A stretch of 64,000 nt of DNA from Romanomermis culicivorax (taxonomy: Eukaryota > Nematoda > Enoplea > Mermithida > Mermithidae), in NCBI GenBank assembly GCA_963922205.1, contig CAWUHX010000009.1:1674001-1738000 (forward strand), given 5' to 3'. The translations under genes were made by a program, and so were the position numbers. The notes beneath the pieces were generated by a model. It was not told where the DNA came from and made no database searches. It saw only the letters and a list, made by a program, of their open reading frames with translations. Within the stretch, counting starts at the first letter, position 1. The number at the start of each line of letters is the position of its first letter. This document shows, piece after piece, positions 11,880 through 59,268 of the stretch.

Positions 11880-12038
11880 AGAAGCGCGAAAACCCAGAAG
11901 GGTTCTTAAGTGTTAAAGGCTCACAAGCGTGGAAACGTTATTCCTATGCTATTACATTGAAACTGCCTGTGAGAAAGGGTGTATAATATGCAAATGAAGT
12001 CTCTACTTTTTGAGTTAAAAATATAAACAAACAATATA

Positions 12039-12782: not shown

Positions 12783-13086
12783 TACATCTAAGAACCTTTC
12801 GCGCTCATGAGCCTTTCACAGTAGAAAAGATAGTACACACTTGAATATATACCATTTTTGGGCTTATGAGCCGTTGGCTCTATTGGGCTCATTCATTGTT
12901 ATGGGCCGTCCGCGCTTATGAACCCCAACCGTTTCGAAACGTTTTTGAATAAAAAGGCCGGAAGGCAAATATTACACCATTTAACGTTTTTTCTAAACCA
13001 TGCAGGATTTGTGCCCTTACTCAACTCACCTTTAAAAATTTCTTCAGTGAAAAATTTCATGCAGAAAGCTGCGCACAAAGATTCAG

Positions 13087-13772
13087 TCCCATTAATTCTA
13101 ATGTCCTGTTACTTTTAATAATGCCAAAAATCTCGTAACTTCTAACTAATGCAATCGAACATAAAAAATCCTGTTACTTCTAATGTTCCGTTACTTCTAA
13201 CACAGAAAACATTCTAGCTTGCACGAAACTAAAAAATCTACCAATAAAGCAATTTTTTGCTTTTTATTACTTATATTTTTTGCAAATATGATTCAAATAT
13301 AAATTAGTCACTTTGAAGATATTATTTCTGACTTTCTTGCTTCCTTGATCATTGTGTCAAGTCTCCTAATATCTGCATTGTTGCTTTTTCGTCTGTTACA
13401 AATTAGTAGTGTTTTACTTTGCTTAATTCATGCTGATTTCTTTAGGCTAAGGCTTAGGCTTAGGCTTAGGCTTAGGTATAGGCTTAGGCTTAGGCTTAAG
13501 CTTAAGTTTGCATGCTGTGTGATGCTAGAAGCTACCCGTGAGAACCGAATTATGCAAATTTGTTTTTCAAGCTTTTTGATCTATCACATTACAGTGTAAA
13601 AGTATAGTACTTTTTTATACTGCATTAGAAGTAATGGGACCTTAGAAGTAACAGGACCTTAGAAGTAACGGGATGTTAGAAGTAACGGGAAATTTTGTTT
13701 ACTGTCTTAAGCATTGTCACAAGTAACAACACGTGAGAAGTAACAGGATGTTGGAAGTAACAGCACACAATG
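13087..13772. mobile_element. Array-ended element, unit like GGACATTAGAAGTAAC
   Basis: The left arm at 13087-13202 carries CTGTTACTTCTAATG units; the right arm at 13622-13772 carries the inverse (TTAGAAGTAACGGGATG, at least six copies). The interior of about 420 bp has no gene and includes a TTAGGC tract. Target duplications were not identified. Confidence 0.65.
13444..13507 (+). repeat. Interstitial (TTAGGC)n tract, about nine imperfect units
   Basis: Runs of TTAGGC with a few variants (TTAGGTATAGGC, TTAAGC). TTAGGC is the telomere repeat word of nematodes. The tract lies near the centre of the array-ended element at 13087-13772. Shorter matches occur near 34573 (inverse) and 41893. This could be telomere-derived or a simple-repeat coincidence. 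Confidence 0.75.
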
Positions 13773-14692
13773 ACACAAATTTTTCGAATTTAATTTGTGA
13801 ACATTTTATAAAAATGGCAATTACATCTGAAAATTTTCCCTTGCAGGTGTAGAACCAACGTTACTTTACAAAAGAGTTTTCTATTGATGTTATTTTCTGA
13901 CTTCAGACTTCAAGCCAAACGTTCTTTTGATTCATGCTTTTGACACATAATGGAAACGGCAATTAATCTTTTCCTTGCCTACTTATTATCTAATCAATGT
14001 GGTAAGAAAGGAGATGACTGAAATAGTCGTGAAATTTTTTATTACCTTACTGTACAAGATTGATCCTCAAAATCTAAAAATGTTTTCGTCATTCTTTGAG
14101 ACTATTGAACGATATTCTGTTCCATAACTAAAAAACATAATGACCCCCATGTTTCGATGTCCTCAGCAAATTTATCAACCTATGATTCGGTTTTTGATGG
14201 ACAGTAATCCCTGAAATCTGCAGTTGAGGATTCGAAAGTTTTTGTGTTCGTTCAAAATTTTGGACAAGTTTTTTTGAACCTGTGGTGATCTTATTGTATT
14301 TACAATTCTCATAATAAATCCAACAAATATACCATTTCAAGAACGGGTTAAAAGTTACTACTGTCATCTTTGCTCTCTTTGATATTCCATTTTTGCAAAA
14401 CTACTACTGTCTAACTTGGTTCAAAAAACTTTATTCGCTTAAGGACGAAGGGGAAAGCTATAGTAGTCACAAGATGAACCAACTCCAATTATTTTTTATT
14501 TTACGAGTACATATCAAGAGTCGTCTTTACCAATGCTGAAAATAGTCAAGGTTTCCTTGATTGGATCATTGTGGATCAATCTTCTCAGAAGACGATCTTT
14601 TTGTGATAGTTATCATCCATTTTGTAGGAAATGCTTGTCAATTGAAAAATGACAAAAGTTTAATTTTTCCCCTTGAAGGAAAGGGTAAAGTT
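13773..14692. other. No gene seen
   Basis: AT-rich sequence with only short, unrelated open frames on both strands. Confidence 0.5.
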
Positions 14693-15698
14693 CATAAGTG
14701 CAACTGGTTCAAAAGTGCAACTGGTTCAAAAGTGCAACTGGTTCAAACGTGCAACCAGTATTTCAAAAGTGCAACCAATAGTATTGGTTCAAAAGTGCAA
14801 CTAATACTGATAAATTAACATTTACGAGGGTCAAAAGCGCAACCCAATATGCCTCACAAATAGATCAAAAGCGCAAACATTAATGTAAGTCAGACAGTTG
14901 TTGGGGATGCACTTACAGTAGCAGGCATCCCATCCATGCAAATTGTGAAAGTGGCGAGAAGGCGTCCTTATGTGGGCATGACTGCCTTTAAAAGGAAATG
15001 TGTGACATGTGATGATAATCATTCTCATAGTTTACGTGTATTTTGTGCAAGCCGCTCGTCCACCATAATTTTGTTATTGTCATTTTTATGTCAGTAAAGT
15101 GTGGTGGCCAAAGTGGCATTTGTTTATCGATTCTTTATTGGCCATTGAGATTTATATTGGGTCACATATTCTGCTACAGCAGCGTCTCACATCTCCAACT
15201 TTTATGAGAACCATTGGGTAAGGTTCTCTGGAGCATTCTGGTAGTTTTTCAGGTGCAAGCTGTTGGATTCCAGTTGCTGAATAGTGACTGAAGGTTGTGT
15301 TTAGGTCTGCTAAAGAACTGTTGCACTGTATGAGCCTTTACCAATAGGAATCTCATTTGAGTGACCTATGGTAGCTAGTTTGGTACAAGCCAATAGATTC
15401 TTTAATCATATTTCTGACGTCTTGGGACCACAGCAGAGAGACCTCTAAACATAACACAGTGACAATAAAAGCATTGAAATAACAGTAAAGGTGTTCAAAT
15501 TTTCCAAAAATAATGGAATATTTGATAGAAGTCCCCAGTCCAAAAACGCATATCATTATAAAAAGCATCTTTTTTATGTACATGAAGCATTTCCAAAAAT
15601 AGGCAATCTGTGCACATGCAAGATCACAAAGGGCTTTTTGTCATGGTTGAGTTTTGATTATTTGAAAATCGTTTTTGTGCATCTGGGCTAAATGTAAA

Positions 15699-17815
15699 AT
15701 GAATTTCCGCAAAGCTAGCTATGTCTCAAACCATTCATTAAAAGCCAGAATTTTCACTTATGCAAATCGGTTTAATTCCAATAACATCTACCAGTTCTGG
15801 AAAAAACTGCAATGGATTCTTCGATCAACAGGGGAACTTAACGAACACTGGATATGTCTAGAATGCAATAAAATTTACAAAAGTTGTGGTAGAGAAGAAA
15901 ACAAATCATATGTGTTGATTACCGTTTTAAATGGCACGATATTGAGAGACCCTGTTGACGGACATCACAGCAATTGTGAATACCGTAATTTTAGGGCAGT
16001 GCATGCAAAGCCATTAGATTGTGAGGCTAGAGAAAAATGTGCCAAAAGGCACAAACGTCCAATGGAAGCACATGTTGACATGAATTCAGAAGTTAATTGA
16101 CGATTTCATGAGATTCGTGAAAGTGTTGCAGTTGAGCAAAATTTACCAGAATATAGTGGAATGAAAAGTGGATTACAGGGTTGGTTCCAAAAAGGTCGAA
16201 TTGCAATGCCTGACTTGTACAATTTGTCTCGGGAGTACGTGACAACAGAATGTGGCTGCTATGCCAAACCTGATGCCCTGTATTATGGTGATAGATGGCT
16301 TCTGTGCAGCAACCAAGACCACAGGGTATTGGCGTATTCCTTATATCTTGCCACTAACTTTATTTCGAGAAGTACTCGTTTGATCATGGATGGCACCTTT
16401 AAGGCAAGTTCTAAATTACAATTTGTATCTAGTTTCAAACTTCGAAAAATTTTCTCAGCTGAGGACCAGACGGGCCCTTGTCCTGCATATTAAATAAGTT
16501 GAACATAAAATCTGTTGTTTCAACTTGTATACTATCATTTTTTGGAAAGATTAGGGAAAACATTTTAAAATTGAGTAAAAAACTGCTATTGAATTAATAT
16601 GTATGAAAAATGTTTAAAAACCCTCTTGAATGCTAAATTTTTTGGACAAGGGATCCCACTCTGATTTTGAAAAAACTAAAGCACCCTAAGTATTGGTCCA
16701 AAAGCCCAATAGTGCATTGCATAAGTGGTACATAATGTTTCCTAACCTGTTTCTACAGGGTCTTCTACTAAAGAAATGATGTATACAGGGTGTACCAAAA
16801 TATTACTTTTCAAGCCCCCAGAACATTACTTTTCTAAGCCCAAAAATATTTTTTAAGCCGCCTACTTGCTGGAACTATTTCAGGTAGCCCCCAACGATTT
16901 TGTGCAGCTTTATACCATTCATGCATGCAGTTGCTTTCTATTTGGAGCCATACCCGTGTGTCACGCTTTGATGCAATCTGAAGACATGGCATCATATGTT
17001 TTTCTTTTCACCTAATTGCGTCAAAAACACATCGAAAATCATGGTGGTTTAGGCGCATGGATCACGATTCACACAGACTTTGAAATAGCTGCCCATGCAG
17101 CAATCAGGCAGGTTTTTCCAGAAATTTCAATAAAGGGGCATGTTCCATTTTTCGCAATCTTTGAATCGAAAATTAAATGCTCTTAGATTATCTAACATCT
17201 GGGTTGACCATGGGGGCATTTGGAGAGTGGATCGGATGTTGCCAGGCTTTGGCTGTTTTGCCACTGCCACTTGTCGTACCCAGCTATGGAGCTATTTTGT
17301 GTAATATTCTGCTAGTTGATGATCCTGTTCGGGCTGCAAAGCTTGAAGAGTTTCGAATCTATTTCCAAAATACATGGATTTTTGGCCAACAGTTCCCATT
17401 AGCAGTTTGAAATCATTGGGACAACGGAGGCCTGCGTACAACCAACCACGCTGAAGGGTACCACAAAGGCCTAAACCTAGTTCAAATTCGAGAAGTGCAC
17501 TTGGCCATTCGCAATTTTCTGCATCTATTCCAACTGCTACACAACAGAGATCAAGTACGAATTCAAAATCTAACTGCTCACATTTACCAACCAAAGGCAT
17601 GGGATCAAACATATGAAGAACTAGATGGTAGCATATCTGCGTCCAAGATCCGTTTCTACGAGACAAAAGGAAACCTGTGGGACTATCCCCAGTTCAATAT
17701 TCAGAGAATGCCCCCTTTTGCATTTCAATTTTTGATGGGTGAAATTCATGCGTTCCTTTGTTACATTCGCAACTGTATGGGCAAAAAACCTCGCGTTGTT
17801 ATGCATAATGAGTAG
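15699..17815 (+). pseudogene. MULE transposase with FLYWCH-like zinc finger, disrupted
   Basis: From ATG 15699 the frame encodes an N-terminal Cys/His segment (EHWICLECNKIYKSC, then DPVDGHHSNC) resembling a FLYWCH finger. It continues past an in-frame TGA at 16098-16100 into STRLIMDGTFKASS, the first catalytic Asp motif of MULE transposases. The gene is then interrupted at about 16440-16895. It resumes with VQLYTIHACSCFLFGAIPV and HTDFEIAAHAAIRQVFP (second Asp). After further frame changes it shows RIYFQNTWIFGQQFP, a TGA at 17408-17410, and LRTTNHAEGYHKGLN. The last 100 codons to TAG at 17813 are open. The motifs are in the right order and spacing for a Mutator-like element, so the family is firm and the copy is dead. 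Confidence 0.85.
16494..16895. repeat. Insertion inside the MULE transposase, with one Tc1-like end
   Basis: Family homology stops near 16440 and resumes near 16895. Within this segment, TATACAGGGTGTACCAAAA at 16783-16801 looks like a single Tc1/mariner terminus. No matching opposite end was found, so the insertion is truncated or rearranged. Confidence 0.5.
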
Positions 17816-17989
17816 ATATGTAGTGTTGTTAGCTATGACATCAGTAAACTAAAATGGTTGTGCAAAACAGCGGGCTTACCTTATAAATTTATGTAGTTAT
17901 TGAGAAATATAGAAAAAAGCACTCTGCATGAGAATTTATCAGTACTAAAGGCACAATTTCTAAGATCATGAATTTTAAATGTGTGCCTA

Positions 17990-18230
17990 AATAGGATGAT
18001 CACCATACATGGGCAGCACCAAAATTCTGCGGGAGGGGGTCAAATCCGAATTTTTGGTCGAAAAAAATCGAAAAAACTCCAATTTTTTCCAAAAAATCGT
18101 CAAAATTTCGATTCTGTGTGGGGGTCAGCGGGGGGTCAAAAAGATTCTGCAGGGTTTCCAGACCCTCCGCAAAGCCGCCGCACGCCCATGTGTGATGATC
18201 ACCACAAGAGATTTTACTGATACGGTGATA
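17990..18230. repeat. G-rich unclassified repeat fragment
   Basis: Contains CACCATACATGGGCAG, runs of GGGGGTCA and CCGCCGCACGCCCATG, flanked by inverted words GATGATCACCA and TGATGATCACCA. Probably the body of a small inserted repeat; similar GGGGTCAAA words recur near 19507-19545. Confidence 0.4.
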
Positions 18231-18451
18231 ATTAGCACAGGAAGCGAAATTAAAGACCAAAATATTACTATGCTAATAAATGTACACATGGGAGTAGTAG
18301 TAGTTGCGCTCTTGAAAATTCAGTTGTGCTTTTGAAATATATGGTTGTGCTTTTGGGGCAGTTGCGCTTTTGAAACATTTAGTTGCGCTTTTGAACCAGT
18401 TGCGCTTTTGAACCGTTGCACTTTTGATCCCCAATCGAACGAAACGGGTAG

Positions 18452-20548
18452 GGTTCGAAAGTGCAGTGGGTACAAAAGCACAGCAAAAGTTTCAAAAGTG
18501 CAGCACATGCAAAAAGTCCAAACGCGCAGCTGTGCCAACCATACATGCACATAGGGAGGTAGGGGAAACCCCCATACCAGAGAACCTGGACACCCCTCCT
18601 AGCCCAAAAAGTCATCGAACACCCCCCCCCCCAACTTTTTTCGACAGCTTTTTTGATGATTTTTTTGCATATTTTGTATGAAAAACAAGCTTTTAGAACT
18701 TTTTTTGTTTTTTTTGCTCGCCCACCCTCCTACTCCTCTGGATAAAAAGTCCAAGGACTCTCCCCCTGGAAAATTCTTGCCGTGCATGTCTGGTGCCGAC
18801 TATATCCTAGAGCTAGAAGGTTCAAAAGCGCAGCCAATGGTGGAAAAGCATTTCAAAAGCGCAGTCAGGTATGAAGTTTCATTTGCTATATACTTCCTAA
18901 AAGATATTATTAAAAATTGTCATTGACTTGACGAAGAAATCACTTCAATGATACTCATACATATACTACAGTTACAGAGTTTTCAAATATCTAACAAAAA
19001 TGAACGCATCTTATTTAAATCGAAAAAATTTTCGGCGTCTATCGTGACTCCAAAAATAAACTTTCTGCAAATTAATTTCTGCCTTTCCGAAAGGATTTTT
19101 TGCAAACTCCACTAAAATTTTGTGAAAGTACTGTGAAAACCTTAAAATGACTAGGTAGATTATAATCCATTTACTTATTTGCATGCATGCACAGCATAGA
19201 AATTCTGCTGGAAGTCAGCCAGGACAGGGGGTGGAATACAATTTTTTTTCATTGTTGATAACGAAAAAATATCTTGGATAGGTCTCCCAACATCCAAGCA
19301 GCATATTCTTCATCTTATATTAGTCAGATATGTGAAATTATTTGCTTATACAGCACTTTTTAAAGTTTCAATGTTACTTTTTTGGAGTCAAGTATGCTTT
19401 GTTTAGAAAAATTGTTGAACTACAGCATCATTTCCATTTTCATGATGACTTTCTCTTCTCTCTTGCTCATTTTCCTCCGTCATCTTCTCGATCATTGCTG
19501 TGGTAGTCAAATCTGCTGGGGGTCAACCAAAGTCTGCTGGGGTCAAAATTCTTAACCCCCCACGTGCATGTATGCTTACTTGAAATGGCAGACGCAGTGA
19601 TAACCAAAAAAAAGTAGGTTCAATTTGTTGCCCAATTTTCACGGAGTGAGAAGCGTAGTACTGTAGAAAAACGCTAAATTTTTTCCATGTTAAAGGGAAC
19701 GCCTTAATCATAGAAAGACGACGCATCGTATCAACTTTTGATTTCCATAGAACTATGTTTGACACCTGGAACCGGTTTAATCAAAGAGACTGCTGCAGCT
19801 TAAGCTGTATGTAGATCAAGCCCCGTCTATATTCCTAGAGGAGCTTAGGAATGCTTAGCGGCAAGTTGATTCCTGAGTATATCAGCAGAGTCCATGCAAA
19901 TATATTCATGGCACTATGTTATACTGACGACCCTCTACATGAATATGTAAAAAATCGCAACTTTTTCATTCTGTGCGAATTCCGTTTGGGACACCCGAGC
20001 ACCGCTAACGAGTTTAGACGGGGTTTCAGGGTCAAAACTTGGGATTTACTTTTTTTATTGCTGTTAACATGTTTTCTATTTTATTATATTTTCATCCTTC
20101 TTTCTGTGTTGCCCTATTTCTGTTTCATTTCACCGTCTTTCTGCTTTTTCTTTTCCGTTTCATTATTCTACTACATCTTTTTTGAGTTACTACAGAACTT
20201 GATTTTCGTCCAATTGTTCAACATTCTATGCAAAAAAATGTTTTTAAAGCCTGTAAAAAGGTCCTGAAAAAATATCATCTAAAAAAGGGGTCTCGGAACA
20301 TCCCTATAGTCAAAATCACGTCCAGTACAGATATTTTCAAAAGAAACTAAATGACGACAGAATTTCACAAGCTTTTATATTCATGACGTTAACAAGTCGT
20401 CTTTAAGACATCCTGTGTCATTAACTAGTAAGTCCACGAAGAACAGAAAACAAAAAAGGCTGACAATAAACTTGCTGCGCTTTTGAAATTTTCGGCTGCG
20501 CTTTTCAAACACTGCCTGCGCTTTTGAACCGACTGCGCTTTTGACTCC
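18452..20548. mobile_element. Array-ended element(s), unit like GGTTCAAAAGCGCAGC
   Basis: Forward units occur at 18452-18537 and 18818-18868. The inverse set lies at 20472-20548 (CTGCGCTTTTGAACC and variants). The unit differs from that of the neighbouring MULE mainly in having GCGCAGC for GTGCAAC. No transposase is visible inside. Two forward blocks facing one inverse block suggest overlapping or nested copies, so the left boundary is ambiguous. The interior includes the dispersed repeat at 19190-19580. Confidence 0.55.
19190..19580 (+). repeat. Dispersed repeat, copy 1 (pair at 63276-63690)
   Basis: Collinear similarity in direct orientation with 63276-63690. Shared landmarks in order are ATTCTGCTG, GCAGC with CATTCTTC or TATTCTTC, ATATGTGAAA, TCAAGTATGCTTTGTT, TTAAACTACAGTATCAT or its variant, CGTCATCTTCTC, and TCTGCTGGGGGTC or TCTGCTGGGAGTC ending CATGTATGC or CGTATGTATGC. 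No coding potential is seen; class unknown. Confidence 0.7.
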
Positions 20549-21198: not shown

Positions 21199-22105
21199 GA
21201 GCGCTACGTTTCGGTGCCGCTATTTCGGCGCCGCCGTTTCGCACCAGCCAGTTCGGCTACGGGCCGTTACGGCGCTAGCCATTTCGACGCCAGCCATTTT
21301 GTTGCCAGCCGTTTCGGCGCGCGTTGGCCATTTCGGCGCTATTTTTCTTTTGCTTTCTTTACTTACATTCTTTTTTTCATCTCATTCCTTCTCTATTTTA
21401 TATTTTTCTTTGTGTTTTTGCTGTCGTCTACCAATTGAGCAAAAAATAAAAAGTTTGTTTTTTTGGGTTGTCGGAAAACGACAGCAAAAGCTTTGAAATG
21501 AATCCGCGATTATAATTTGTTTTTGACTGATTATTTTCATGTATGGAAACAAAGCTCGTTTACCCATAGTCTGTTTTTTATAAAGTGCTTGTAAAGTGAA
21601 TATTGAGAATAGCATCGTCGTTGAGATCGTTTACTGAAACTTTTGACTAGGTATGAAATTGTTCCACAAGAAATAGCTAAAGGTTAGTTGACTATGCTCA
21701 CAGGTTTTCGGCGCTATGTGACATACGGTCTGAAAATCTTAGAAAGTCCGAAGTAGTACTTGCTTTCCACTCTCATTATTTGAAAGCATTTGAAGAAAAA
21801 AGTCTATAATTAGCTATTTTTGTATTTGTTGCACTTTATGGGTATGCTTCCTGTAGCATCACTTTCGACCAGTAAAGAACGTCTTTTTTCATTTTATGAA
21901 ACCATTTTTTATTTTTGCAACTCTTTTCCTGCCTCTTTTTTTTCTTCCTCTCATTAGTGAGTGGAGAAATAGTGCTGAATTTTTATTATTTTGTTTTTGC
22001 ATATGAAATTCTATAATGTCATGCTCCGAAATGGCTGACGCCGAATAGACTGGGGCCGGAACGGCCTGGCGCAGAAATCGCGGCGCCGAGACATCCCGTT
22101 CTGTG
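21199..22105. mobile_element. Array-ended element, unit like CATTTCGGCGCCAGC
   Basis: The left arm (21199-21345) is a GC-rich series (CATTTCGACGCCAGC, GTTTCGGCGC, TATTTCGGCGCC). The right arm (22025-22105) has CCGAAATGGCTGACGCCG and related inverse words. The interior includes a TATAGTCTG-ended MITE (21566-21808) and no gene. The arms are more diverged than in other members. Confidence 0.5.
21566..21808. mobile_element. TATAGTCTG MITE, short form
   Basis: Starts ATAGTCTGTTTTTTATAAAG and ends GAAGAAAAAAGTCTATA. The interior (TAAAGGTTAGTTGACTATGC, GTAGTACTTGCTTTCCACT) matches the copies at 24250 and 51702. Non-coding; a mobilising transposase is not apparent in the window. Confidence 0.7.
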
Positions 22106-24249: not shown

Positions 24250-24498
24250 TATAGTCTGTTTTTTATAAAATGCTTCCAAATAGAAAAGTGACACAGATCA
24301 GTACTGTCGTCAAAATCGTTTTCATAAAGCTCTTATCGTAAAATTTTTCACTCAAAAAATTGTTAAACATGAGGTCAGTATGCTCACGAATTTCCAGCTC
24401 TATACGATATTTTGTTTATCAGAAAATCGTGAAAATCTGACATACTACTTGCTTCCCACTTTCATTATTTAGAAGCATTTCAAGAAAAACAGATTATA
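24250..24498. mobile_element. TATAGTCTG MITE, short form
   Basis: Left end CTATAGTCTGTTTTTTATAA, right end AAGAAAAACAGATTATAG. The interior (GTGACACAGATCAGTACTG, TCGTCAAAATCG) is nearly collinear with the copy at 51702-51949, about 250 bp in both. Confidence 0.8.
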
Positions 24499-25985: not shown

Positions 25986-25994
25986 TCATATTAT

Positions 25995-26056: not shown

Positions 26057-27639
26057 TAGGGTTGTCCCGGGGCAGAAATTTTAGCCGGGGCCGGGGCCGG
26101 GGCAGACATATAACATATTAACATATACGTCACTAGTGGTATCATACTTCATGTATCACATCGAAAAAATTTTAAGGTGATTCTTTTTCTTTTTATTTCA
26201 TGCCAGCTATGATACAGCATTGATTGATAGGTTAGATAGGGTCTGATGCAGACAAAAAAATTAAATTTTTAAGATAATTGTCATTACTAAAAATTAGGAA
26301 ACTCATTCTTTTCCCGAAGAAACTGCATTGCATACATGAACTTGTATCGATTCATCTGCAGGGTTTTTTAGCATGGTGCTATCGATCGTAATCACCGTTT
26401 ATTAGCATAGGTAATCGTAATAATAAACAGTCTATTCTGATCAATGAAACCACGAGAATTAAGGTTGCAAAAAATTCAGCAGCAGCTTTCAATCTTTTAG
26501 TCGAAAATTTTTCAAATTTCAATGTTCTAGAATGCAGGAAAATGTATCTTTCTCAACATGTTCAATACAAAAATTATGCACGCACCCAATAGTTTAGATT
26601 CCCCAAACAGATGAAATACATCTGTCATTTTTCTGCTGTGATGATGTTTGAATCATATTTCAAATGGGAAGTTTATGTTCACAAAACAGTAAAATATTCA
26701 AACACTGCAAAAGGATCGAGAAAAATCTTGATTTTTTTCGACTATGTCAAGAAACAATACAAGATTGAACATCATCCACGAGATAGGACGACATTTTTCA
26801 ACCGTGAACCAGAACCAACATTCAAAATTATAAACCATTTGAATCCGGCGCAAAGCGCCGGAAAATTTTCAGGAGTTTTTGTTTTAAAATGCATGAAAAT
26901 GTCTTTCCAGACAGGAAATCCTATGACGTAATCAAAAGAATCGTCAGGCTTTAGGTTGCACTGTGTATCAAAAAATCTGTACAGTAGGGATCCGTGCCAG
27001 CCCAAAAAAACTCCGTCTGGTACGGAAAAAACCCTGACTGGAGGGGAGAAACTTTTGAAAAATGCTCGAGAAGAAAGTTGGAGATATCAACAAATTGTGG
27101 TGAAAAATCAAAAATCACCATTTTCCCAAATAACAACTTTGTCAAAATCTTCATTCTCTTTGTCACTTTTGCATAGTGAATGACTGTGGCGCGAATGTGA
27201 ATTCGCTTCAGCTCTAACTTCTTGGACACTACTTAGGTAATTTGAAAACATGTTTTGACATGTATGCTGAAGTTTAGGCAAATCAGTAATAATGAAGCTA
27301 ATATAATTGTACGTTTTCTGAAAAAATCAATTGAAGTTGAAGTGCAGTTCCGGATATAATGAAAACTTTTAAACTTTTATCCAAATAGAACATGAATTTA
27401 GTGATTCCTAAAAGTATTACTGTAAAACTAACTACTGAATATTTACTTGTCACAGTCTAAACTTCAATTTTATTATAAATCGAGCTTGTTATACTATCAA
27501 AAATACTAATTTTTTGTAGTCTTGCCCCGAACCGGGGCAACCCTTGCCCCGAACCGGGGCAGCCCTTGCCCCGGCCCGGGGCCGGGCAGCTGCCCCGATG
27601 CAGGGGCCGGGGCCGGGGCCGGGGCTTGGGACAACCCTA
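26057..27639. mobile_element. hAT-like DNA transposon, 1583 bp, GC-rich subterminal repeats
   Basis: Ends are TAGGGTTGTCCC at 26057 and GGGACAACCCTA at 27639, flanked on both sides by GTTATAAC (26049-26056 and 27640-27647). This fits an 8 bp target duplication and the hAT consensus end. Because GTTATAAC is also the array unit, the duplication could partly reflect the target. GGGGCCGGGGC repeats lie just inside both ends, with CCCCGAACCGGGGCAACCC units at the right. The interior is AT-rich with no recognisable transposase, so it is non-autonomous. Confidence 0.75.
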
Positions 27640-28492: not shown

Positions 28493-28632
28493 AAATGCAC
28501 TCTAATGTCCCTGCGCTCTAATCCTGCGCTGACCCTGCACTCTAATGTCCCTGCGCTCTAATCCTGCGCTCTTATGACCCTGCGCTCTAATGTCCCTGTG
28601 CTCTATTGTCATGCGCTCTAATGTCCGGCCAC
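28493..28632 (+). repeat. Solo array, unit like CTGCGCTCTAATGTCC
   Basis: Roughly eight units of a 14-17 bp repeat (inverse GGACATTAGAGCGCAG). No opposing arm was found in the window, so this is a solo arm, a broken element, or an element whose other arm has decayed. Confidence 0.7.
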
Positions 28633-32108: not shown

Positions 32109-32109
32109 G

Positions 32110-33093
32110 GATTGTGTGCCGGTTGGCCGAACGTACCGTTTGGCCGAATGTACCTGTTGGCCGAACGTACCTGTTGGCCGAACGTACCGTTTGGCCGAAT
32201 AGTGATGTAAATTCCCGTTTGGCCGAGCCTATGCTATGTTTCTCGTAATGTTAAAAAAGTACTATTTGGCCGACCGTATCTGTTGGCCGAACGTACCTGT
32301 TGGCCGAACATATTGTTTGGCCGAATAGTGATATAAATTCCCTTTTGGCCGAATCTACGGTATATTTCTCGTAATGATAAAAAAGTACCGTTTGGCCGGA
32401 TGTACCGCTTGACCGAATAATGATATAAATTCTTCCTTAGCCGAACATATTGTGTTCCTATAGTTGTTTAGTATGTGTCATCTTCATTTGGAAGGTATGT
32501 AATCAACCGATAACCTGCAATACACAATAAAAATTGTTTTGTTGAAGTCGATTGAAATTATTGCATTCAAAATTATTATTGCATTCAAAATAATCATAAT
32601 TTGAGCCATCGTGCAAGTGAACACTTTTTTTTGAATAGGAAAAAAATGATTCAGAATAGCCTGACTTTCACAAACTAATAACGTAGATCTTCTAAATTTC
32701 GTTAAAATAAATTTAGCTTCACCAAAATCTTCCATTTTAAAGATAAAAATATACTTCAGCAGGATAAAAAACAAACGAATCTCTTATACTCAGATACTTT
32801 GCATTGTGTAAATTAGAAATCGATTGACACTGTGTAAAATAGTGGGAAATAACGAAAGTGTGTAAGGGGAAAAGAAAATTTCAAGGCGTTCCGTCCAACA
32901 GATAGGTTCGGCCAAACGGTACATTCGGCCAATCGGTTCACAACAAATTTTTCAACACCTTTCGGCCAACCGGTACGTTCGGCTTACTGGGAAGTTTATA
33001 AAAATTCATATATCGTTATTCGGCCAAACGGTACGTTCGGCCACCTGGTACATTCGGCCAAATGGTACATTCGGCCAATCGGCACACAACCGT
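32110..33093. mobile_element. Array-ended element, unit like TTCGGCCAAACGGTAC
   Basis: The left end reads ATTGTGTGCCGGTTGGCCG and the right end CGGCCAATCGGCACACAA, so true terminal inverted repeats lead into the arms (32110-32450 and 32896-33093). Flanks GTTCGGTG and GTTCAGTG, seven of eight identical, are a candidate target duplication. The left arm also shows a longer-period repeat of about 140-150 bp: TTTGGCCGAATAGTGAT, then TTTCTCGTAATG, then AAAAAAGTAC, recurring. The interior carries a decayed ORF on the minus strand. Confidence 0.8.
32560..32745 (-). pseudogene. Decayed ORF shared with the element at 48 kb
   Basis: The translation shows FGEAKFILTKFRRSTLLVCE followed by a HFFPIQKK segment. 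It aligns with FEEARFILSLHGQMLIFVCE and HFYLLKKK in the element at 48049-49297. The shared pattern is E-A-[KR]-F-I-L, then V-C-E-S, then H-F and a Lys cluster. It may be the N-terminal FLYWCH-type part of a MULE transposase, which is inference from weak resemblance. No downstream catalytic domain remains. Confidence 0.45.
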
Positions 33094-37668: not shown

Positions 37669-40600
37669 GTAAGGAAAATTTTTGATTAAAAAAGTATATT
37701 ATTGGACTAAAACGAAAAGTGTTCATTTATTTTCAAATGAGCCACGAGAAGCAAAATATTTCGTAGAAAACGATGAGCACACAATAAGCCTGCGTCGTAG
37801 GCCGGAATTTTTTTTCTCGATTTGTTCGTATAATTACTGCAGTCAACAGTGTCCGTACGCACTGTTTGTTTATTATTTGCGTGAACATCTTTCTCTCCGT
37901 CAAGGTTCTTCAGGAACGAGATCAAATAGATGATCTGAATCAACAACTTTCAACAATTTTTTCAAATTTCTATTCATATTCAAATTCAAAACAATTATTT
38001 GGCAACAAAAATCAGATTCAAAATTAATGGACTATAAAATGTCTTTTGGTTATTTTTTCCTTTGGAGTTCTCATATTTTTTAATGTGAAAATGAAATTTG
38101 GTATATCCTTTGAATCAGCATTACTTCCGGAAGTAGAGATATTTCTAAATGTGGTTTTGTTTATATGAATCAGTTATCAATTTTAGAAGAATTTTCTTCT
38201 AGTCTTATCATAGCCCTGACCTTACGAAATTTTAGAGCAGAGGGACATCTTCCGCAGTAAAACCATCAGAAACGTAGCTTTTAGCTGAAAAACATGATCC
38301 GTTTCCAAACGAATTACTGTCCGGTAGAAACAGATTGGGTGATATTCCAGTGCAAAATTTAAAGGAAAATCAGGAATATTATCTGTGTCTTGCACACCCT
38401 GTTGTGTTCTGAGCATAATTATATTCGCGCACGAACCATATTCTATTACAGAGGTACTCCAAACATTACTCGTTTTTCATTGGAACACACAGTATAAAAA
38501 TAACTAATCGTGGCCGATGTGAATTCCATTGATCTCACAAAATGAAGTTTTTCCGCGAAAATCTAATTTAGTATAATTGGATGATACATTATATTGAGGG
38601 TTAAATATTTTAACGCGAGAACGCAGGACCGTTCTTAGGGGGGCGAACTGGGCAATCGTCTAGCGCCGCTAAAAATCTTCTAGTGTGTTCTTGAAAAATG
38701 TATTTTTTTATAAGCCGTCAATAAAATTTTCTGTTTTTGTATGCAAACAGTACAAAATTCCGACAAACACAATTTTGGTGCCAGTTTCTTAAATTCATTT
38801 TCTCTTAGCAGAGTGTCCAACAGCCTGGAAAAACTGTAAAAATCAGCGAATTTTGATTTGGATTGTATTTATCTTTATTGCAAGATAACCCCGAATTATT
38901 TCATGACAAACCAAATTTGCATTTTAAAAGTCCAAAACCTCAAAATGTTTACTGCGCTTCGCACCAGTTTTAAGCATTAGTATCATTATTTATCTGGCTT
39001 TGGCTAAAGTTTACTACATAAGAAGTCAAGGATCATTACTCAATCAACATCGTTTAGTGCAGCTGTAGTTCTATTTCGTCTCTAATTAATATTGAACGTT
39101 TTTTTGGAGAGTAATTGGGATTTTAACTTTTCTGCTGATATTATTATGTTTGCCAACTTGATGATTGTTAAAACTTTATCGTCAAGGAATATTAATAAAC
39201 ATTTTTGAAGCTTAGTAAAAGTTACAATTTCATGATACTGAGACCTACTAATGCAATGAGATTTTGTTCTGATCGAAGAACAGCTAAAGTATAATACTCC
39301 TATGATAGATGCTTTATATGACAACTTCTTTGTACGTGACGAAATTGAAACGAATTTCAGAAAATTCTGTTTTCCTTGGTTTTGAAAATTTTCTATGTTA
39401 GGTACATACAGTGCATTGAAAAAAGGATTTGAGAATAAGAATAAAATATTATAATTATAACTGCATTACAAAATGGAACAAAGGAAATTAGAAAAATAAA
39501 TCAAAAAGCCAATAGTGGGCGGTATATAGATAAATCATGCAAATACTGTACATTTCATATCAGAATTTCATATTTAGCTGTGCATGGTCAAAAGGGCTAG
39601 TAAATTTATATTCGTCCGAAATAATTTTTTTTGCTAAAGCTTTAAATGCCTGATTATTACTGACAAAAACTATGGGAGGTTTTGTTTCAAATGTTGACTG
39701 TTCTGCTTATGGAAGAGAATTTTTGGGTATCACTTTTAGTTTCGAGTTGTTTCCTGATCTGTTGGTCTACTGCACGATGGCGTAGAAGTCTTCCAACTTC
39801 AAAACAGTTTTTCAAAAATTTTAAAAAGATATTTTATATAACATGAAATTATGATTTAGGAATCTCTTTTTTCAAAAGTATCTAGTTTCAGAATAGCATT
39901 CTCTCTCGGGATAACAAGAATCTAGTGAATTTATGACCCTCTTTGAGAAATATTTTTCTATTTTGTCAACCGTTAGGTAATGACAGATTTAGTCGAAATT
40001 CTGATGGCTATTTGACCACTAGATTCCGATTACACTATGTTTTATAGTCTGTTTTTTTCTCAAATGCTTGAACCGAAAAAAGATGAAATGAAGTATACAT
40101 GCTTGTTCAATTACCGCGCATGCGCACACTATGCTGTATTACGGGAAAAATGCGGCAATTAAAATTTGTCGGGATAGAAGGCTATTTGTTAGGAAAAAAG
40201 TTGGAAATGAGAAGAAAGGCGCTATGCCGTTAGGACGCAAGACATTAGGACGCAGACATTAGGACGCAGACATTAGAACGCAGGGACATTAGGACGCAGG
40301 ACATTGGGACGCAATACATTAGGACGCAAAGACATTAGGGCGCAGGACATTAGGACGCAAGGACATTAGGACGCAGGACATTAGGACGCAAGGACATTAG
40401 GACGCAAAGGCACTAGGACGCAGCACTTTTAACATCCGAGGACGTTAAAACATATAATCGTGTCACAAAATAATCGAATTTATTGCTGCATGGAAATTTT
40501 TCCCAGCATTAATTTTATTATATGAAAGATATGTGTTAATAATGTACTATTTCGTGTTCATGATTTCATTTTTTCTAATGCGAGAAAGTGACACTCAAGA

Positions 40601-43600
40601 AAAATCGAGCCCTTGTCTTTTCGAGATCCAGTGACACACTTGATCCATTTGCATGTCCAAATGCTAACATGAGAGAAACAAATATTAATGATATTTTACA
40701 ATTCTAGCACTTTCTGTTATTTTTTGGCTCCCACCAAAATTTTATGGTTCCCTATTATTTTGCAAAACAAACTGCTCGTAAGACTTTTTCTATAAGACTT
40801 CAGGATGTGGCGTTTTGGGACTTTTCCAATATCGTACTTGTGGCTTAAATAAATAGATATTCTATCGTTGTACCATGTCTGAACTGACACTGCTTTTCAA
40901 ACTCATTCGAAAACAGAAAAAGTTGCAATGTGGGAGGCATTCAAGACTCTTCAGTTTCTTTTTACCCACTTCTAAGTGAGCCTCCAGAACAGTGAATAAT
41001 ACCCTTCAGATTGACTTTCACAAATTCTGGGGTAAATTTATGCGTCCTAATGTCCTTGCGTCCTAATGTCCTGCGTCCTAATGTCTTTGCGAGTTCAGTT
41101 TAGAGTTTAGACACAGGTTTCCGCCGCTGGTTAATCGATTCCTAACATACAGTCAACAACGATATTATTTCGACACGAAATTATGCATACGTACATACTT
41201 TTAGCATTTTCTCGTTACAAGCATTTGAAAAAAACAGACTATAGATACACTACTCAAAATGCTTATACAATAAGTATCAATGGTTCTAACTTGTACACAA
41301 AAACTGTATAAGCTTTTTTGAGCATAAACATGTTTTATAGAAATCTTTACCATTCGAGAAAAAGTTTGGGAGCTTTACTGTCTATACCGTTATGGAATGT
41401 GCTTCCGATCGCACAAATTCTACAATTGTGTAATGCACCTGTTTTTTCCGTTGTCCCCTTACCCCGACCATCCCGTTACCCCGACTGTCCCTTTATCCCG
41501 ACCATCCCTTTATCCCGACCATCCCGTTACCCCGACTGATGCATTAAATTTCCGATATTCCGATCAATGCAAAATTTCATGAAAGGCTCCTCTTTTATAA
41601 TAATCCCGTTACCTCGAGTGTTGTTTTTTGCAAGTCTGTATTTACGTTGTAATTTGGAACTTACAGATTTACATTCTTTAGTGCAAAACAAAATTAATGA
41701 ATTGATTATGAAAAATGATATTACAGGTACTACAACGTTTCTGATTCATTTATTTTTTATTTAATTCAGACCAAATCAAAAAAATAAATACGGCCTTCAG
41801 CCTAATTACTGTATATGAGTTGTTTGTTAATTTTGAGCATGGATTTCTGTGACTAGTGAGTAGGCATTTATTTTTCCTTTAAAATTTTTCTTAGGCTTAG
41901 GCTTAGGGTACAGCAGCTGCGTCCGAAGGGCGCAGCGCTGTTGAGGCTCTTCCAAATGAAGTTGTTAGTTAAAATAGTATCAAGGGAGTCGGGGTAACGG
42001 TGGTCGAGGTAAAGGGACGGTCGGGATAAAGGGACGGTTGGGATGAAGGGATTTTTTGTATTTCACTTTTAACATTAGTCGGGGTAACGGGATGGTCTGG
42101 GTAACGGGATGGTCGGGGTAAAGGGATGGTCGGGATAAAGGGATGGTCGGGGTATCGACACACAATCGTTTTTCCACTCTGCTCTTCTTTGTACCAAGAG
42201 TGGCAAACGACAGCCACCCTCGACACAAAGAAGCCATCAAACATGTGGCTGCTAAATTTAGATGGTGAAATACTGACGAAAATTTATCTTCGGAAAAAAT
42301 ATTGGGCTCACGCATCGCAGAATCTTAGAAAATGTTATTTTAAAATCAATTTCGTAGAAATTTTGATCATGTCTGCTTTATAATATTATACATGTTTACA
42401 GCTGGGCAATGAAAATAGTTTTTCCTGGTCAAAGAATCTCTTTTTTTTATGGCGGTTGTCTGATTTCTGAATTTTACTTGCTTTTTTATGTCCAAATGGT
42501 CTGATTCGATTTCTGTTTTTTCAACCATATTTATCAAAAATGGTTGATTTCTGGTTGACGTTTTTGGTTTTCTAGTTCGTTGGCGGCGGTTGAAAATATC
42601 AGCACACTGCCCAGGTTGTACGGTACACACTTTCCATCATATTATGTAGCAATTTGAATTCTGCTCCGAAAAAAAACCTGGAAAATTCTGGAAAAAAGAC
42701 CTGCGAGACCTTGAAATTTCGTTTGGAAAAACCGATGTACTCTTTATCCTGGGTGTTTTATTAAGGTATTATATTATTAAGACGTTTCATGACGGATAAG
42801 GTATATGGAATGAGCATTCAAAGAGTTGGAAAACCTTTTGTGGTCATTCAACCGGTTCATAAAAGTGAATAAAATCATGTAATAATGGAATCATGCGTCG
42901 TTTTTAGATATTCTAAAGTACGTAAAGTAGTGCACTATCTATTATCTAAAAAAGACGCGGTGTATACTAATTATTGAAAAAAGTGAGGGCTGCTAAATCT
43001 GAGTTCGCCCAGTGCCGCTAAAACCTTAAGAACGGACCTGCGAGAATGTAACTACTGATCTGCTGAATTTTGATACTGAATGCTTATGAACCGATCTGCT
43101 AATTCAAGTTTTCAAAAATTCTATAAACTTGAAAAAACAGAACTGACTTTGGAAATTAGAAATTTAGCAAAAAAATCTTGACCAGTGAGTGATCTTCGGA
43201 TCAATATCACGGATATCAACCCGCTTCTTGTCGGACTCAGTGATGAAAAGTTTTTTCTATTGCTATCAAGTTGATTTGTTGTAAAAGCTCTCAGAAGTCA
43301 TGAAAACTTACTTAGTAATCCTTAAATGGGGAAGTGCGCAATGGAGATGAATGCTTCGGCATAGGAAGATCACAAAAGCTCTTACAATGATCTGTCAAAT
43401 GTATGCATTGTGACAGTATATAGGTACTACTTCGGTTGCTGTCATCAGTTACACATGAAAATGTTATTATTGAACACATCCATGAAAATTCACGTGCTTT
43501 CTGTTCCTTGTGATTTTAATTTTATGAAAATCATCCCATTTCATTGCATAAGAAGATTGCAAGCTAAGTTAGTTTCTTTCCAAGAAATGTGGTATTTTGA

Positions 43601-46600: not shown

Positions 46601-49600
46601 CTTTGTTTCATGGTCACTTATACGCATTTTTTAAATTTTTATGCAAATCAGTGTTCAATTTTGTTTTCTGTGTACCATAAAACTTAACAACACTAGTGGT
46701 TAGGGAACAAGCTTGTAAAATAATACTATATGTCCGGTTTTCAATTACACTATTGCTGCTATCTGTTTTTACAATGTGTTGGTTCATGCACAGATTATAA
46801 TGTATTCATTGATCGGTCAATATTTTTTATTAACTAAGCAACCTTTTGTTGTCTGTGTTTATTGGTCCTGTTAATATTTTGCCAATTTTGACTGTGGTAG
46901 TAAGCTCGACATCCTAATCTGCTTTGACTTGACCAAAAATTTACTCATTTCGATTGTTTTATAGTTTGTAGGGTGGTTGGTTCATGCATGGACAGGTCCA
47001 ATTTGCTGTGGTGAGCCAACTTTTTTATCAACTGAATAACCTTTTTATTTTAGTATAGTTCGACCTGAATAGAAAGTCTGCATGCATTATCATCACTTGC
47101 ATAAAATCTATCCATTTCAATTTTTTACAGTTTATAGGACAGTCCATTTAGGTTCTGTATTTTGATAAATATTTTGCAAATGTGTCTACAATTTTGAATT
47201 TTACGATATAGAACCATATAACCCTAACACATCAGAAGAAAATAGGCAAGCTATGGGCTTTAGGGTTTTATGGTTTACATTTTCATTTTAACATTTCACA
47301 AATTTGCATAAAATTTGATGAACCTTTGAAAAGTGGAACTGTAAAACTGTAAAACCCATAGCTTGTCCATTTTCTTCTGAAACTTAATGGTTTTACAGTT
47401 TTATGTTTCGAATTTTTAAAATTTTAGAATTTTAAAATGCAAAAAATGAGTGATACCATAAACTTTAAACTTTAGAAGAAAATGGACAAGCTACGGATTT
47501 CACGGTTTTACCCATTTTTTGCCTTCCACAATTCTAAAATTTTGTACAAATTTCTATTTGGGAGACAACTTTAGTTGATTTCCTATGCTTAAGCATTGGA
47601 TTTAAGACACAACTTTTGTTGTCGGCCTTGAGTCAACTTTTTCTGCAATTTGGTCGATGTCGACCTTCACTGTACCTTTAATGATGAAGTGTCGAATTCT
47701 GCATGCTAAATCCATTGATTTGATTTTGGCCCTCCCTTATTATACTTTCCTTAGTGATGTGGAATTTCACATGTTCAAATCCCTACCATACCTTCTACAG
47801 CAATATGGAATTTCACACTTAATACCATGACCATATTTTTCTTTCTATACCCCCTGTATGGGCTCGAAGGTTATAACAAATTTGGATAGAATTTCATGCT
47901 GGCCTGTACTTTCTAGACTCCATATATTGCCCCGCACAGTATGTGCAGCCTTTGTTGATCTTATACTTATAATATTGGTATCTTTTTTGTACCTCCTGTA
48001 CCGGCTGGTGCAACTACTGAACACCCACTGCCAATTTCAACCGGTACAGTCTCACTTTGGCGCCCAGTCTGACATTGGCGCCCGTCTCACATTGGCGCCC
48101 ATCTCACTTTGGCGCCCGTCTCACATTGGCGTCCATCTCACTTTGGCGCCCGTCTCACTTTGGCGTCCAACGTTGTAGGCGCCAAAGTGAGACTGCTGTC
48201 TTACTTTGGCGCCCGTCTGACTTTGGCACCCATCTCACTTTGGCGCTCATTGTTTAATAATGACTTTTCTTGGATATCCTAACCTGGCGTCCGTCTCACA
48301 CTGGCGCCCGTCTCACTTTGGCGCCTGTCGCACTTTGGCGCCCATCTCACATTGGCGCCTTATCATAGTCTACTTTTCGGCATTCATGCTGATCATTTAT
48401 TTGGGTGAATCATCATTCCCCGAAATTCCTCTTTCCCCGAAGAATGCTTCAAAGCTTTTTCTCGAAAATTCCTATTCCTCAAACTTGTCGAATCCCGTTT
48501 CCCCAATAATAGACGAAGGCTATTTTTATATTGCATTATGTTAATTGCTAATTTTCTCAGAGAACATAGTAAATTGTAGGATTTCGCCTAAAATTCGCAT
48601 GGTAATAAAAATTAGTGAAAAATTGGAAAAAAATAAAAAATGATTTCACGTTTGATATGCTTAGCTTCAATTTCGGACAGATTAAGAGGCATGCAATGTG
48701 AATTGTGACCGTGATCCGGATTTGATTGCATCCTGCGCTCATGATCTGTATTATGATCCATGGGATTCCCATGAATGTTGCAAGATATGCATTCGAAGTA
48801 CATGACTTCACCAACAATGGCTAATCGTTTCATTTTCTTTTTGAGCAAATAAAAATGATCCGGATTAACTCTACTTTCACAAACAAAAATTAACATTTGA
48901 CCATGCAAAGATAGGATAAAGCGGGCTTCCTCGAAAGCAGCTATTTTAGTTTTATGAAAAGTGTTTTTATCAAGTGAAGTTTAGCAGGATAACTGATTAT
49001 TTTATTTTCCACCATTTAGAGAGAGAGCTATTCAGGGTGGCCTGAGCTATTTATAGCCATTTGTAAAACTGCGCGTAAAATTTGCATAGATGAAGACACG
49101 TTGCTTGTTTATTAGGACATACAATGCGCCAAAGTAGGACGGGCGCCAAGATGAGACGGGCGCCAAAGTGAGACTGGCGCCAAAGTGAGATGGGCGCCAA
49201 AGTGAGACACAGTTTGGGCGCCAAAGTGAGACGAGACACCAAAGTGAGACGGGCGCCAAAGTGAGATGGGCGCCAAAGTGAGACGGAATCTGTAAATAAA
49301 TCTGTCCAAGGCTCCACATCGTTTTAGAACATGCTGTCATGTGACCAGCCTACCGAAGCCATCCCATGTATATATGTCATGACTGTACCCAGAATTGTAC
49401 AATCCAAAACGTTTTTCGAAAAAGTATCATTCAATGTTCATTTTTTATTCATGTAGAAGACGAATTAGCAATCTCAGTTTCAAGGATCAAGTCTTCGATG
49501 CGCGCCTTACCAAAACCCCAAGATAATCCACCGTCAAAAATGCAAAACAAAGGTTATACTGCAGCTTGTATTTTTTGTGTGTTCTTCAGCTTTCTCGTTT

Positions 49601-52600
49601 TTTCACCGTTATTCCTCCTCCAGCATCCTCCTCTTGCCCGATGTTTTAATGTTGAAAATACCATCAAATCAATTTACCGTTGATAAAAGCTTAAGCATTT
49701 TTGTTCACGTGAACCACCAGCGAACTGGGTCAATAAAAACGTGATATGTGCCTCCAATTCTCCAAGTCTTTTTGTCTAGGAAAGAAACTGATAGATCAAG
49801 GGCTATGTGAACTTTTCCTTTTTTCTGGGATATCTGTCTCATCCGAATCTTCTCGTTTTTCGTCCATCCATTGATTTGTCTTCCTTTTGTATATGATAAG
49901 ATACTAGTCATCTGTGGAGCGTATTCATGCAAGTTGATGGTGCTTTTTTCTCTCTCTAGGGAACAAAGATAATATTGGCGGTATGGACCCCACGAAATTT
50001 AGGCGAACGGCGACAACGTCAATTTTAAGTGATTTGCAGGCATCGTCGAACATAGTTCAATTGTCGAGGAGAGGTTTGTAGAATGATTTGCGTTATCTCA
50101 ACACACTTATGAAGTAAAAATATGAGATGTTACCTCATGTGTGTGATTTCACATTAGTCTTGCTCATGTGCTTTTAAAGGCGGAATAATAGGGATCAGGT
50201 TACTCAATGTATCATCGATAGCGTAATGGTCTCATCTGTTTCTCCTGGTACTCAAGGAAATGGCCGTTTTCTAGTAAAAATTCCACTATGGAAGTATTAT
50301 AGTGCTACACTAGTCGTCCTTCCCAATGAATGACCTTATTGACACTATAAAATTTTCATGAATGAGGTCAGCTGTGATAACTTGGTCTCATCAGGCAAAC
50401 AAATGCAAATCATTCAAATTCATTCCATCGACAGGTATTTGCTGATGAGAACTCTAATATGTTCATGGAACCTGCTCTTCATATGTAATATTCTACGAGA
50501 TGAACAACTCCGAATTTTAGCCAAACTCGAAACCCTTATAGATTGATAACGGTATGAGATCCTTTTGGGAGCACAAGAGTACTTCTAAAGTTCAGTAAGT
50601 TCTACAGGATGCATACTACTTTTGTGATCAATAATAGTTAGAAGTTACCATTGCCAAAACCTTTATGCAGATTGTAATGTAAATAGAGTCTATTGACAAG
50701 AACAACTGGTGTAACATTACTCAGCTTGCTCTGGGATATCAAATGCACCGCACTCCATTTGTCTTAAAACGAACACAGAATGCAGAAAAATGCAGAAAAA
50801 TGCTTGGACAAGATCGTTAGTGTGGCAAGATAACACAAACTATGCTCTGTTTTTCTCAATATTATTTTTGCACCATTCATATGTGCGAATTATGTGTTTT
50901 ATAAAATGGTTGCAAATTAAAAAATGCCAAAAATCAAATTGTTGTTTAATGATTAACATAAAGCTTTCACTGTGGAATTTCTTCCCAAATATTAATAAAA
51001 GTTAGTTGAGTATCCTCACAAATTCACAGTCCTAAGTGCCATAGGGTTTAGTAAAAAATAGTAAAAAATAGTGCTCGCTATCCAGCTTCATTCATTAGAA
51101 GCATGTAAGAAATAGTCTGCCGGTAATGAAGTTTTTCAAATCAGTTTGTTGACAGTACCCAACTCTTTTAAGAACTTTTATTTAATTTTTATTTAAGATT
51201 TTAAGAACAGTAATATGCATTTTATAGGGTCATTGTCGGCACTTACACTGCCTGATTCCTCATGCCCATACCCTTCAGTCGACGTGAGTGGAGTTTCTGT
51301 CTTCGAAGTGCGACAGCCCGACGGCGTCAGAGGTTAGTTAAACGCAGTTGAAGATTCCAAGATCGTCCATATATTTCCGCATTTTCAAGAAGGCCGCTCC
51401 CGTTGAATCCAAATAAAATGCCATTGTAACTTTCCGAAAACACAAACAGTATTTATGAGGTAGATTTGGCCCCACACAGACTAATTTTCCTGCTTGCGAA
51501 GATGTAAGATGTCTAAAGGCGTATTTATACTTCGCTCGAGGAGGCCTCCTCGAGGAGAAAACAATCAGAATGCAGGAGTACTACGCGTCATGGCTTCCTT
51601 CCTCAAGCAGAGTATGAATGCAACTCTGGCGAGCATACTCTCGACGATGAATCAAGTATGAACGTACTCTTTCAACAAGCGTATAGGCTGATCGAGGATA
51701 CTATAGTCTGTTTTTTGCAAGTGCTTATAAATAGAAAAGTGACACAAATCAGTACTGTCGTCAAAATCGTTTACATAGAACTGTTTCTGTGAAACCTTTT
51801 ACTCGAAAAATTGCTAAAGGTTAGGTCGGTATGCTCACAAGTTTCCCGTCCTATACGATATATTGTTCATCAGCAAATCCCAATAATCTGAAATACTACT
51901 TACTTTCTACTTTCATTATTTAGAAGCATTCCAAGAAAAACAGACTATAGTCTACAATCCGGAGAGGACCGCTCGCATGCGCTTGGTATATTTTGTGTGC
52001 TAAGTTGGGGAGAAGTGCCCTAAAAACGGTCCGCTGTCCACCACATCGTATTTCTAGCTTTTTGGTTGAGGCAACCTGTTCCCGCTGCTCGGGGCTTCAG
52101 TAAAAGTTAGCCTCGGTCCGGGACTTGAACCCGGGACCTTGCGGCTACCGTCCGCACGCTCTAACCAACTGAGCCAACCGAGCAACGGGAAAGGTGCTCT
52201 CTTTTTTTGCAACAATTCGTAGTTGAGGTGGTTGCTGTGACCACTCTCAACATCCCTCCGCCGTCGAGTTTGACGGACCGTCAGAGGCCACCAGTGTTCA
52301 GGCAACCTGTTCCCGCTGCTCGGGGCTTCAGTAAAAGTTAGCCTCGGTCCGGGACTTGAACCCGGGACCTTGCGGCTACCGTCCGCACGCTCTAACCAAC
52401 TGAGCCAACCGAGCAACGGGAAAGGTGCTCTCTTTTTTTGCAACAATTCGTAGTTGAGGTGGTAGCTGTGACCACTCTCAACATATTTAGTGCCACTCCG
52501 ACGGCTCCCAGTGCTTCCCCCCCCCCCGCCGCGTCGGAAATTCCTATAAAATGGTAAAAATGATAGTCTACAGGTTAAAAATTGTCCGTTTTTCGTTAAA

Positions 52601-59246: not shown

Positions 59247-59268
59247 TATATATATATATATATATACA
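59247..59268. repeat. (TA)n microsatellite
   Basis: Eleven TA dinucleotides directly at the right end of the long-TIR element. Confidence 0.85.

Follow-up and report, generated by a model that had tools for sequence, protein, structure and literature searches.

A 64,000-nucleotide stretch of the genome of the mermithid nematode Romanomermis culicivorax (assembly GCA_963922205.1, contig CAWUHX010000009.1, positions 1,674,001 to 1,738,000; hereafter the window) carries a series of elements whose two ends are arrays of short tandem repeats facing each other. These are very probably cut-and-paste, foldback-type Mutator-like elements (MULEs) together with mostly non-autonomous derivatives. An earlier note on this DNA had listed nine pairs of arrays, here called E1 to E9 in order of position (Table 1), and had described at least eight elements with one layout and with a unit that differs among elements but is matched between the two arms of each. 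Both statements hold for eight of the nine, in which Tandem Repeats Finder (TRF) and unit scans find arrays that oppose each other and share a unit; E1 (11880/12787) is decayed. The association with MULEs suggested there is also borne out. E3 contains a MULE domain, and among 32 MULE-domain loci read elsewhere in the assembly (L009-L040), 25 have transposases that the tree places in groups that include FLYWCH or RYYR-CCHC-like types, and 21 of these 25 loci are flanked on both sides by opposed tandem arms.

The opposed arrays of the window were recovered by self-alignment, TRF, unit scans and an array-pair detector. A strict rule required a unit of 13-22 bp, three or more copies per arm, and arms separated by no less than 0.2 kb and lying within 9 kb. 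It yields eight opposed pairs in the window and two in the same orientation, the latter two arising where the related arrays of E3 and E4 match each other. When the window was resampled 20 times by a first-order Markov model, no array pair of either orientation appeared. One opposed pair, 26006/27640, was rejected, as its 17-bp unit GTTATAACATATC comes close to being a palindrome and the array has been invaded by a different element (26057-27639), which has matching CTAGGGTTGTCCC ends. Removing this artefact leaves seven strict opposed pairs (E2, E3 and E5-E9), with E4 falling just below the rule on account of its short left arm. Left-arm units match nearly all on one strand and right-arm units nearly all on the opposite strand, the exceptions being one reversed unit in the left arm of E9 (48177) and a block adjoining E3 (18452-18535), an array that may belong to the left arm of E4. 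TRF periods in the window elements are 15-17 bp; the exceptions, at 21 bp, are E4's right arm and one among several readings for that of E3.

Elements of the window

Three elements retain transposase sequence. The MULE domain of E3 (PF10551) scores 31.7 bits against a cut-off of 27.6 and has one internal stop. An open reading frame (ORF) in the interior of E9 matches a profile of the N-terminal exon (L024, L029, L030 and E3) with an E value of 5.2e-07 among 7,311 ORFs. The remnant in E6 is recognized at the DNA level, by 66-69% identity to L036, L037 and L038 across 162-173 columns; its two frames give E values of 0.21 and 0.45 with the protein profile among the same ORFs, above the inclusion threshold. 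The unit of E6 is closer to that of L035 while its exon matches L036-L038, and judging from these likenesses E6 may combine the arms of one family with the interior of another.

Several elements are connected to MULE loci through their arms or termini. E6 ends in GATTGTGTGCC on the left and GGTTGTGTGCC on the right, and the right terminus of E8 is GATTGTGTGTC. With at most one mismatch, GATTGTGTGCC occurs at three window sites, all at arm ends of E6 or E8 (0.74 expected by chance; 5 of 100 shuffles reach three), and exact copies are present at 2 of 40 loci, at the arm ends of L037 and L038. Clusters of the E8 unit are found at L036, L037 and L038 and at no other locus read; for window units as a whole, clusters among 258,000 bases of other loci are limited to L036-L038 and L039. 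The right terminus of E2 on the minus strand, CATTGTGTGC, is by eye near the group D1 terminus GATTGTGTGCC, and the E2 unit resembles that of E8 (score 5.0, shuffle p 0.01). The interior of E2 also includes 10.5 copies of TTAGGC (13442-13504), the nematode telomere motif. Part of E4 (20340-20544) recurs with 79% identity to one stretch in L039, and positions 40230-40721 of E7 have a second copy in L038 with 92.6% identity. TRF found no array at the E1 pair, which is interrupted by a mariner-type insertion; the right arm of E1 and an arm of L030 are 67.7% identical over 127 bp (E value 1e-05). No transposase remnant was found in the interior of E5 and no link from it to any MULE, and E7 yielded neither a MULE remnant nor a target duplication.

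Target duplications were sought at the window elements. E6 has an 8-bp candidate (32102-32109/33092-33099) with seven of eight bases matching, at the boundary set by its relatives. The weak candidate at E8 (41442-41449/42168-42175) also matches at seven of eight bases, but is T-rich and asymmetric about the arms, and the remaining elements have weak candidates or none. This is as expected if these copies are old.

Table 1. Opposed-array elements and associated features of the window
Feature	Position	Strand	Description
E1	11880..12928		decayed element; arms about 11880-12036 and 12785-12928
Insertion in E1	12037..12784		mariner-type fragment; DUF4817 and helix-turn-helix matches; 33-bp perfect inverted ends; TA flanks
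E2	13080..13772		opposed arms 13085-13200 and 13625-13767; 17-bp unit
E3	14688..18431	+	opposed arms 14688-14877 and 18303-18431; 17-bp unit TGGTTCAAAAGCGCAAC; broken MULE transposase inside
E3 transposase	15666..17812	+	broken by stops and frame changes; RYYR-CCHC-like N terminus 15666-16097, MULE domain 16947-17132, C-terminal part 17411-17812; placed by tree in group D2
E4	18819..20547		two left-arm units (18819-18869) and four right-arm units (20470-20547), akin to the unit of E3
E5	21209..22095		opposed arms 21209-21320 and 22017-22095; 15-bp unit
Single array	28496..28627	+	E7-like 16-bp unit; no partner arm found within 9 kb
E6	32110..33091		arms 32116-32418 and 32906-33085; 17-bp unit
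E6 interior	32506..32783	-	remnant of N-terminal transposase exon over two frames; DNA similarity to L036-L038
E7	40224..41091		arms 40224-40422 and 41041-41087; 15-16 bp unit
E8	41442..42175		arms 41454-41620 and 41986-42160; 17-bp unit shared with MULE loci L036-L038
E9	48049..49286		arms 48049-48360 and 49124-49286; 17-bp unit GTCTCACTTTGGCGCCC
E9 interior	48615..48980	-	remnant of RYYR-CCHC-like N-terminal transposase exon; profile match

MULE loci and array units elsewhere in the genome

A Pfam MULE-domain search of the assembly (359 Mb, 595 contigs; the window sits on contig 9) gave at least 122 listed matches, E3 included, with 150 of 248 candidates scored. The 32 loci read were selected from these rather than drawn at random, and the share with arms is therefore no estimate for the whole genome: 20 (L009-L028) are among the first 24 list entries, six come from lower down, and six were taken for an E3-like match pattern. 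L001-L008 are excluded from all counts, as seven overlap L009-L015 and L007 was otherwise unread.

Each of the 21 two-armed loci has at least three unit copies per arm except L029, whose arms of two and three units were counted under a looser rule. The other four of the 25 (L013, L015, L018 and L037) have one arm only. The remaining seven loci (L025-L028 and L031-L033) belong to a SWIM/PHD group, and none has arms under the strict rule, although L031-L033 are covered by stretches of only 4-5 kb, in which distant arms could be missed. The looser rule gives scattered 11-12 bp matches on both strands in L027 and L028; these are left out of the arm counts. L009-L034 contain, by the strict rule, 17 opposed pairs versus one same-orientation pair. 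With the MULE elements of L009-L040 masked, the remaining 175,705 bases, which are flanks and armless loci and not a random sample, contain two opposed pairs and none in the same orientation.

Target duplications of 8-11 bp, which the earlier note had proposed as a check, are well represented at the transposase-bearing loci, where candidates are 8-10 bp long, and were not clearly found at the window elements. In an automatic test, 16 of the 21 two-armed loci score at least 8 and 12 score at least 9, compared with about 5% and 0.7%, respectively, of 300 swapped-flank control pairs. Duplications adjoining the termini were also identified by eye at L012 (CCCTCTGCC), L022 (ATCAGAGTC), L020 (ATCATAACT), L014 (ATAATAAAC), L016 (TTCCTACTT) and L023 (TCGACTTAG). 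The best automatic matches of L020, L021, L022 and L035 are asymmetric about the detected arm ends; termini placed by eye fit at L020 and L022 and over eight bases at L021, and do not fit at L035. L009, L010 and L017 had no match in the automatic test, although the termini of L017 share eight bases by eye.

Two loci have further arrays. L014 carries arrays of another, L018-like unit (CTGTATTGAGAATCG) at 129-196 and 8265-8325, on both sides of a clade B MULE, which suggests nested elements. L038 has three arm-type arrays in a row: an E9-like one starts at 61, a D1 MULE occupies 201-3495, and a copy resembling E7 begins at 3681.

In the transposase tree, E3 lies within group D2 (support 100/99), group D1 has support 95/94 and the 16 FLYWCH-group loci 99/99, while support for uniting D1 with D2 is weak (86/64). 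Pfam typing covers L011, L016, L024, L025, L030, L034 and E3; other loci, including the remainder of the FLYWCH group, were assigned by tree position alone. The MULE domain is above cut-off in L011, L024, L030 and L034. FLYWCH domains lie N-terminal to the MULE domain in L034 (33.4 bits) and in a piece of L016 (48.5 bits), both outside the window; L011, of clade A, has a Pfam MULE domain and no FLYWCH. In E3, L024 and L030 the RYYR-CCHC domain is below the Pfam cut-off and FLYWCH was not found. A PHD finger was present, among eight pieces scanned, only in the armless L025. Among ten protein relatives of the MULE domain of L030, three are from R. culicivorax, one of these three being 92% identical over 35% of the query, and a homologue search with the N-terminal domain returned a single protein, from Romanomermis. 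A WRKY-like fold is a candidate for the RYYR-CCHC-like N terminus; Foldseek against the PDB gave no match at an E value of 0.001, to WRKY domains or otherwise. The arms are not confined to one MULE clade, contrary to what the earlier note had suggested: they occur in the FLYWCH group and in the RYYR-CCHC-like groups, and are absent from the seven SWIM/PHD-group loci read.

Ten unit types are linked to transposases, and in the sampled loci unit type follows transposase clade. The FLYWCH group has ACGACAATTGGGTGA at nine loci (clade A), AATCCGTCCCCCAC at L010 and L014, AATTGCTCGCAAAC at L016, L017, L021 and L023, and the AATTCGTCCCC type at L034. Group D2, which is RYYR-CCHC-like, has three units (E3; L024 with L029; L030), as does group D1 (L035 with L039; L036-L038; L040). 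Transposase sequence is common to elements with different arm units (E3, E6, E9, L024, L029, L030 and L035-L040), as the earlier note had envisaged.

Units read in the same direction are the more alike the higher the identity of their transposases (Mantel test, r 0.44, p 0.003; the L010 protein stood in for the L014 unit), and no such trend is seen when one unit is reversed (r 0.11, p 0.18). For the pairs L035/L036 and L024/L030, with transposases 57% identical, units resemble each other little or no more than shuffled units do, in agreement with the fast turnover of arms that the earlier note had suggested. Together these results indicate that close families tend to share related units, a signal that fades quickly. 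The unit comparisons gave no support to descent of all elements from one ancestral unit. Among 17 units (136 pairs), 16 pairs are alike in the same direction and 18 in the opposite direction, so that same-direction likeness is no commoner.

Mechanism, alternatives and known systems

In the reading that we favour, each end of an element has a short terminal motif beside an 8-10 bp target duplication, followed inward by an array of a 14-18 bp unit, with the two arrays of an element facing each other. The zinc domain at the N terminus of the transposase would bind the units. Arrays could lengthen and shorten while recombination or conversion keeps both arms alike, and drift of the unit, tracked by the matching transposase, would leave families isolated. 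In this scenario, E2 and E4-E9 would represent short copies of considerable age that such transposases once mobilised in trans. A bolder version holds that the arrays are a fast-changing recognition code, in which, inside a single MULE radiation, the unit is swapped in both arms together, the terminal motif where cleavage takes place is kept, the zinc domain of each transposase follows its unit and families become isolated; we regard this as possible, but lean against it.

It is very improbable that the arrays are unrelated minisatellites or satellite remnants inverted by chance, with E3 the sole transposon. Tandem arrays are indeed common in the window, the pair 26006/27640 owes its opposed appearance to a palindromic unit, and target duplications are absent at most window elements. 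However, the resamplings produced no pairs, the window units cluster at so few other loci, transposase exon sequence lies within E6 and E9, and E7 exists in a second copy. An origin of some short elements in other superfamilies, with foldback structure acquired independently, is unlikely. Such structures did arise in different lineages, as in Galileo, a foldback element with a P-element transposase (PMC3169594, PMC4079207), and E5 and E7 lack both a MULE remnant and a target duplication, but E6, E8 and E9 are tied to MULEs through exon, unit or terminus. The presence of MULEs at all arm-bearing loci read follows by construction, because the loci were chosen by their MULE domain.

The arms might also be kept for reasons other than binding, such as slippage, hairpin formation or the seeding of satellites, which we judge rather unlikely. 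The arms of the foldback element Tetris seeded satellite DNA in Drosophila virilis (PMC4079207), and binding of the transposase to the units is in our case an inference. Yet the correlation between unit likeness and transposase identity is confined to one reading direction, and arms are missing from all seven SWIM/PHD-group loci read.

Inverted arms with internal tandem repeats are familiar from the Drosophila foldback elements FB/NOF. The plan of foldback-type MULEs, with inverted arms built of short tandem repeats that lie internal to a short terminal motif, is found in the elements described here and has been published for Muta (PMC5225508) and Tm1 (PMC3169594); the earlier note had known of no description of it as a single family. 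Muta of Aedes aegypti comprises 14 MULE families with 8-9 bp target duplications and many non-autonomous derivatives; subterminal tandem repeats of 9-15 bp occur in 10 of 12 long-end families and FLYWCH in 13 of 14, and Muta1, a type 2 foldback element, is mobile in yeast (PMC5225508). Muta resembles the present elements in its short tandem repeats at MULE ends and its FLYWCH group, but Aedes belongs to another phylum and its units are of 9-15 bp (PMC5225508), whereas those of Romanomermis are of 14-18 bp and also accompany RYYR-CCHC-like groups.

Tm1 of Meloidogyne root-knot nematodes, a Mutator/Foldback element, has arms in which tandem units of 13-15 bp vary in number. Its terminal motifs are short and asymmetric and its target duplications mostly of 9 bp; one class carries a FLYWCH-type MULE transposase, and many copies resemble miniature inverted-repeat transposable elements (PMC3169594). 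It shares with the Romanomermis elements a nematode host and tandem-unit arms, and one of its end motifs, CCTACCC, recurs at the termini of L024 and L029. However, its CGGTTAA motif and unit CGATTCAGTATCCGC were unmatched here by eye, and one unit consensus is given for it (PMC3169594), in contrast to our ten transposase-linked types, of which those of D1 and D2 accompany RYYR-CCHC-like rather than FLYWCH transposases. Tetris has inverted arms with internal tandem repeats and 8-10 bp target duplications, but its units are of about 220 bp and its transposase is unknown (PMC4079207). The animal MULEs Phantom and Rehavkus have duplications of 8-10 bp and 9 bp, respectively, and both contain minisatellites (PMC6446971). 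The aphid Phantom minisatellite sits after the transposase ORF, and that of Rehavkus lies in the C terminus of a protein with a PHD finger (PMC6446971). We did not assign E3 to Phantom, as RYYR-CCHC is below cut-off and FLYWCH was not found in E3, L024 and L030; the PHD finger of Rehavkus was likewise not found in the E3 pieces.

As the basic architecture is already published, what is gained is material for comparison rather than a novel type of element. The study adds a mermithid host, transposases of an RYYR-CCHC-like group, ten unit types tied to transposases and evidence of fast unit change, and the correspondence between repeat type and transposase family is unusually clear in this genome. 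In a literature search outside which most subscription journals lie, titles and abstract openings included none on MULEs of Romanomermis and none on co-divergence of unit and transposase in MULEs. Many related families, each with its own unit and transposase, form a natural series for the study of concerted change in transposases and their binding sites, and for asking by what means both arms come to carry a rewritten array simultaneously. They also carry a warning for annotation, since arrays of this type can mark the ends of transposons instead of being ordinary minisatellites.

Other features of the window

ORFs on the minus strand at 426-10180 resemble a Polinton/Maverick element, with an integrase with chromodomain, an ATPase and polymerase pieces. 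Exons resembling RIM-binding protein include an SH3 domain (43638-44066) and weak fibronectin and RIMBP2-like matches (54411-54737). Two tRNA matches of equal score (52110-52183 and 52341-52414) lie in a 231-bp tandem duplication, and a tandem array at 56733-57308 has a unit of roughly 98 bp (or 194 bp). A pair of 209-bp inverted repeats (57607-57814 and 59039-59247; 95.7% identity) is probably another element.
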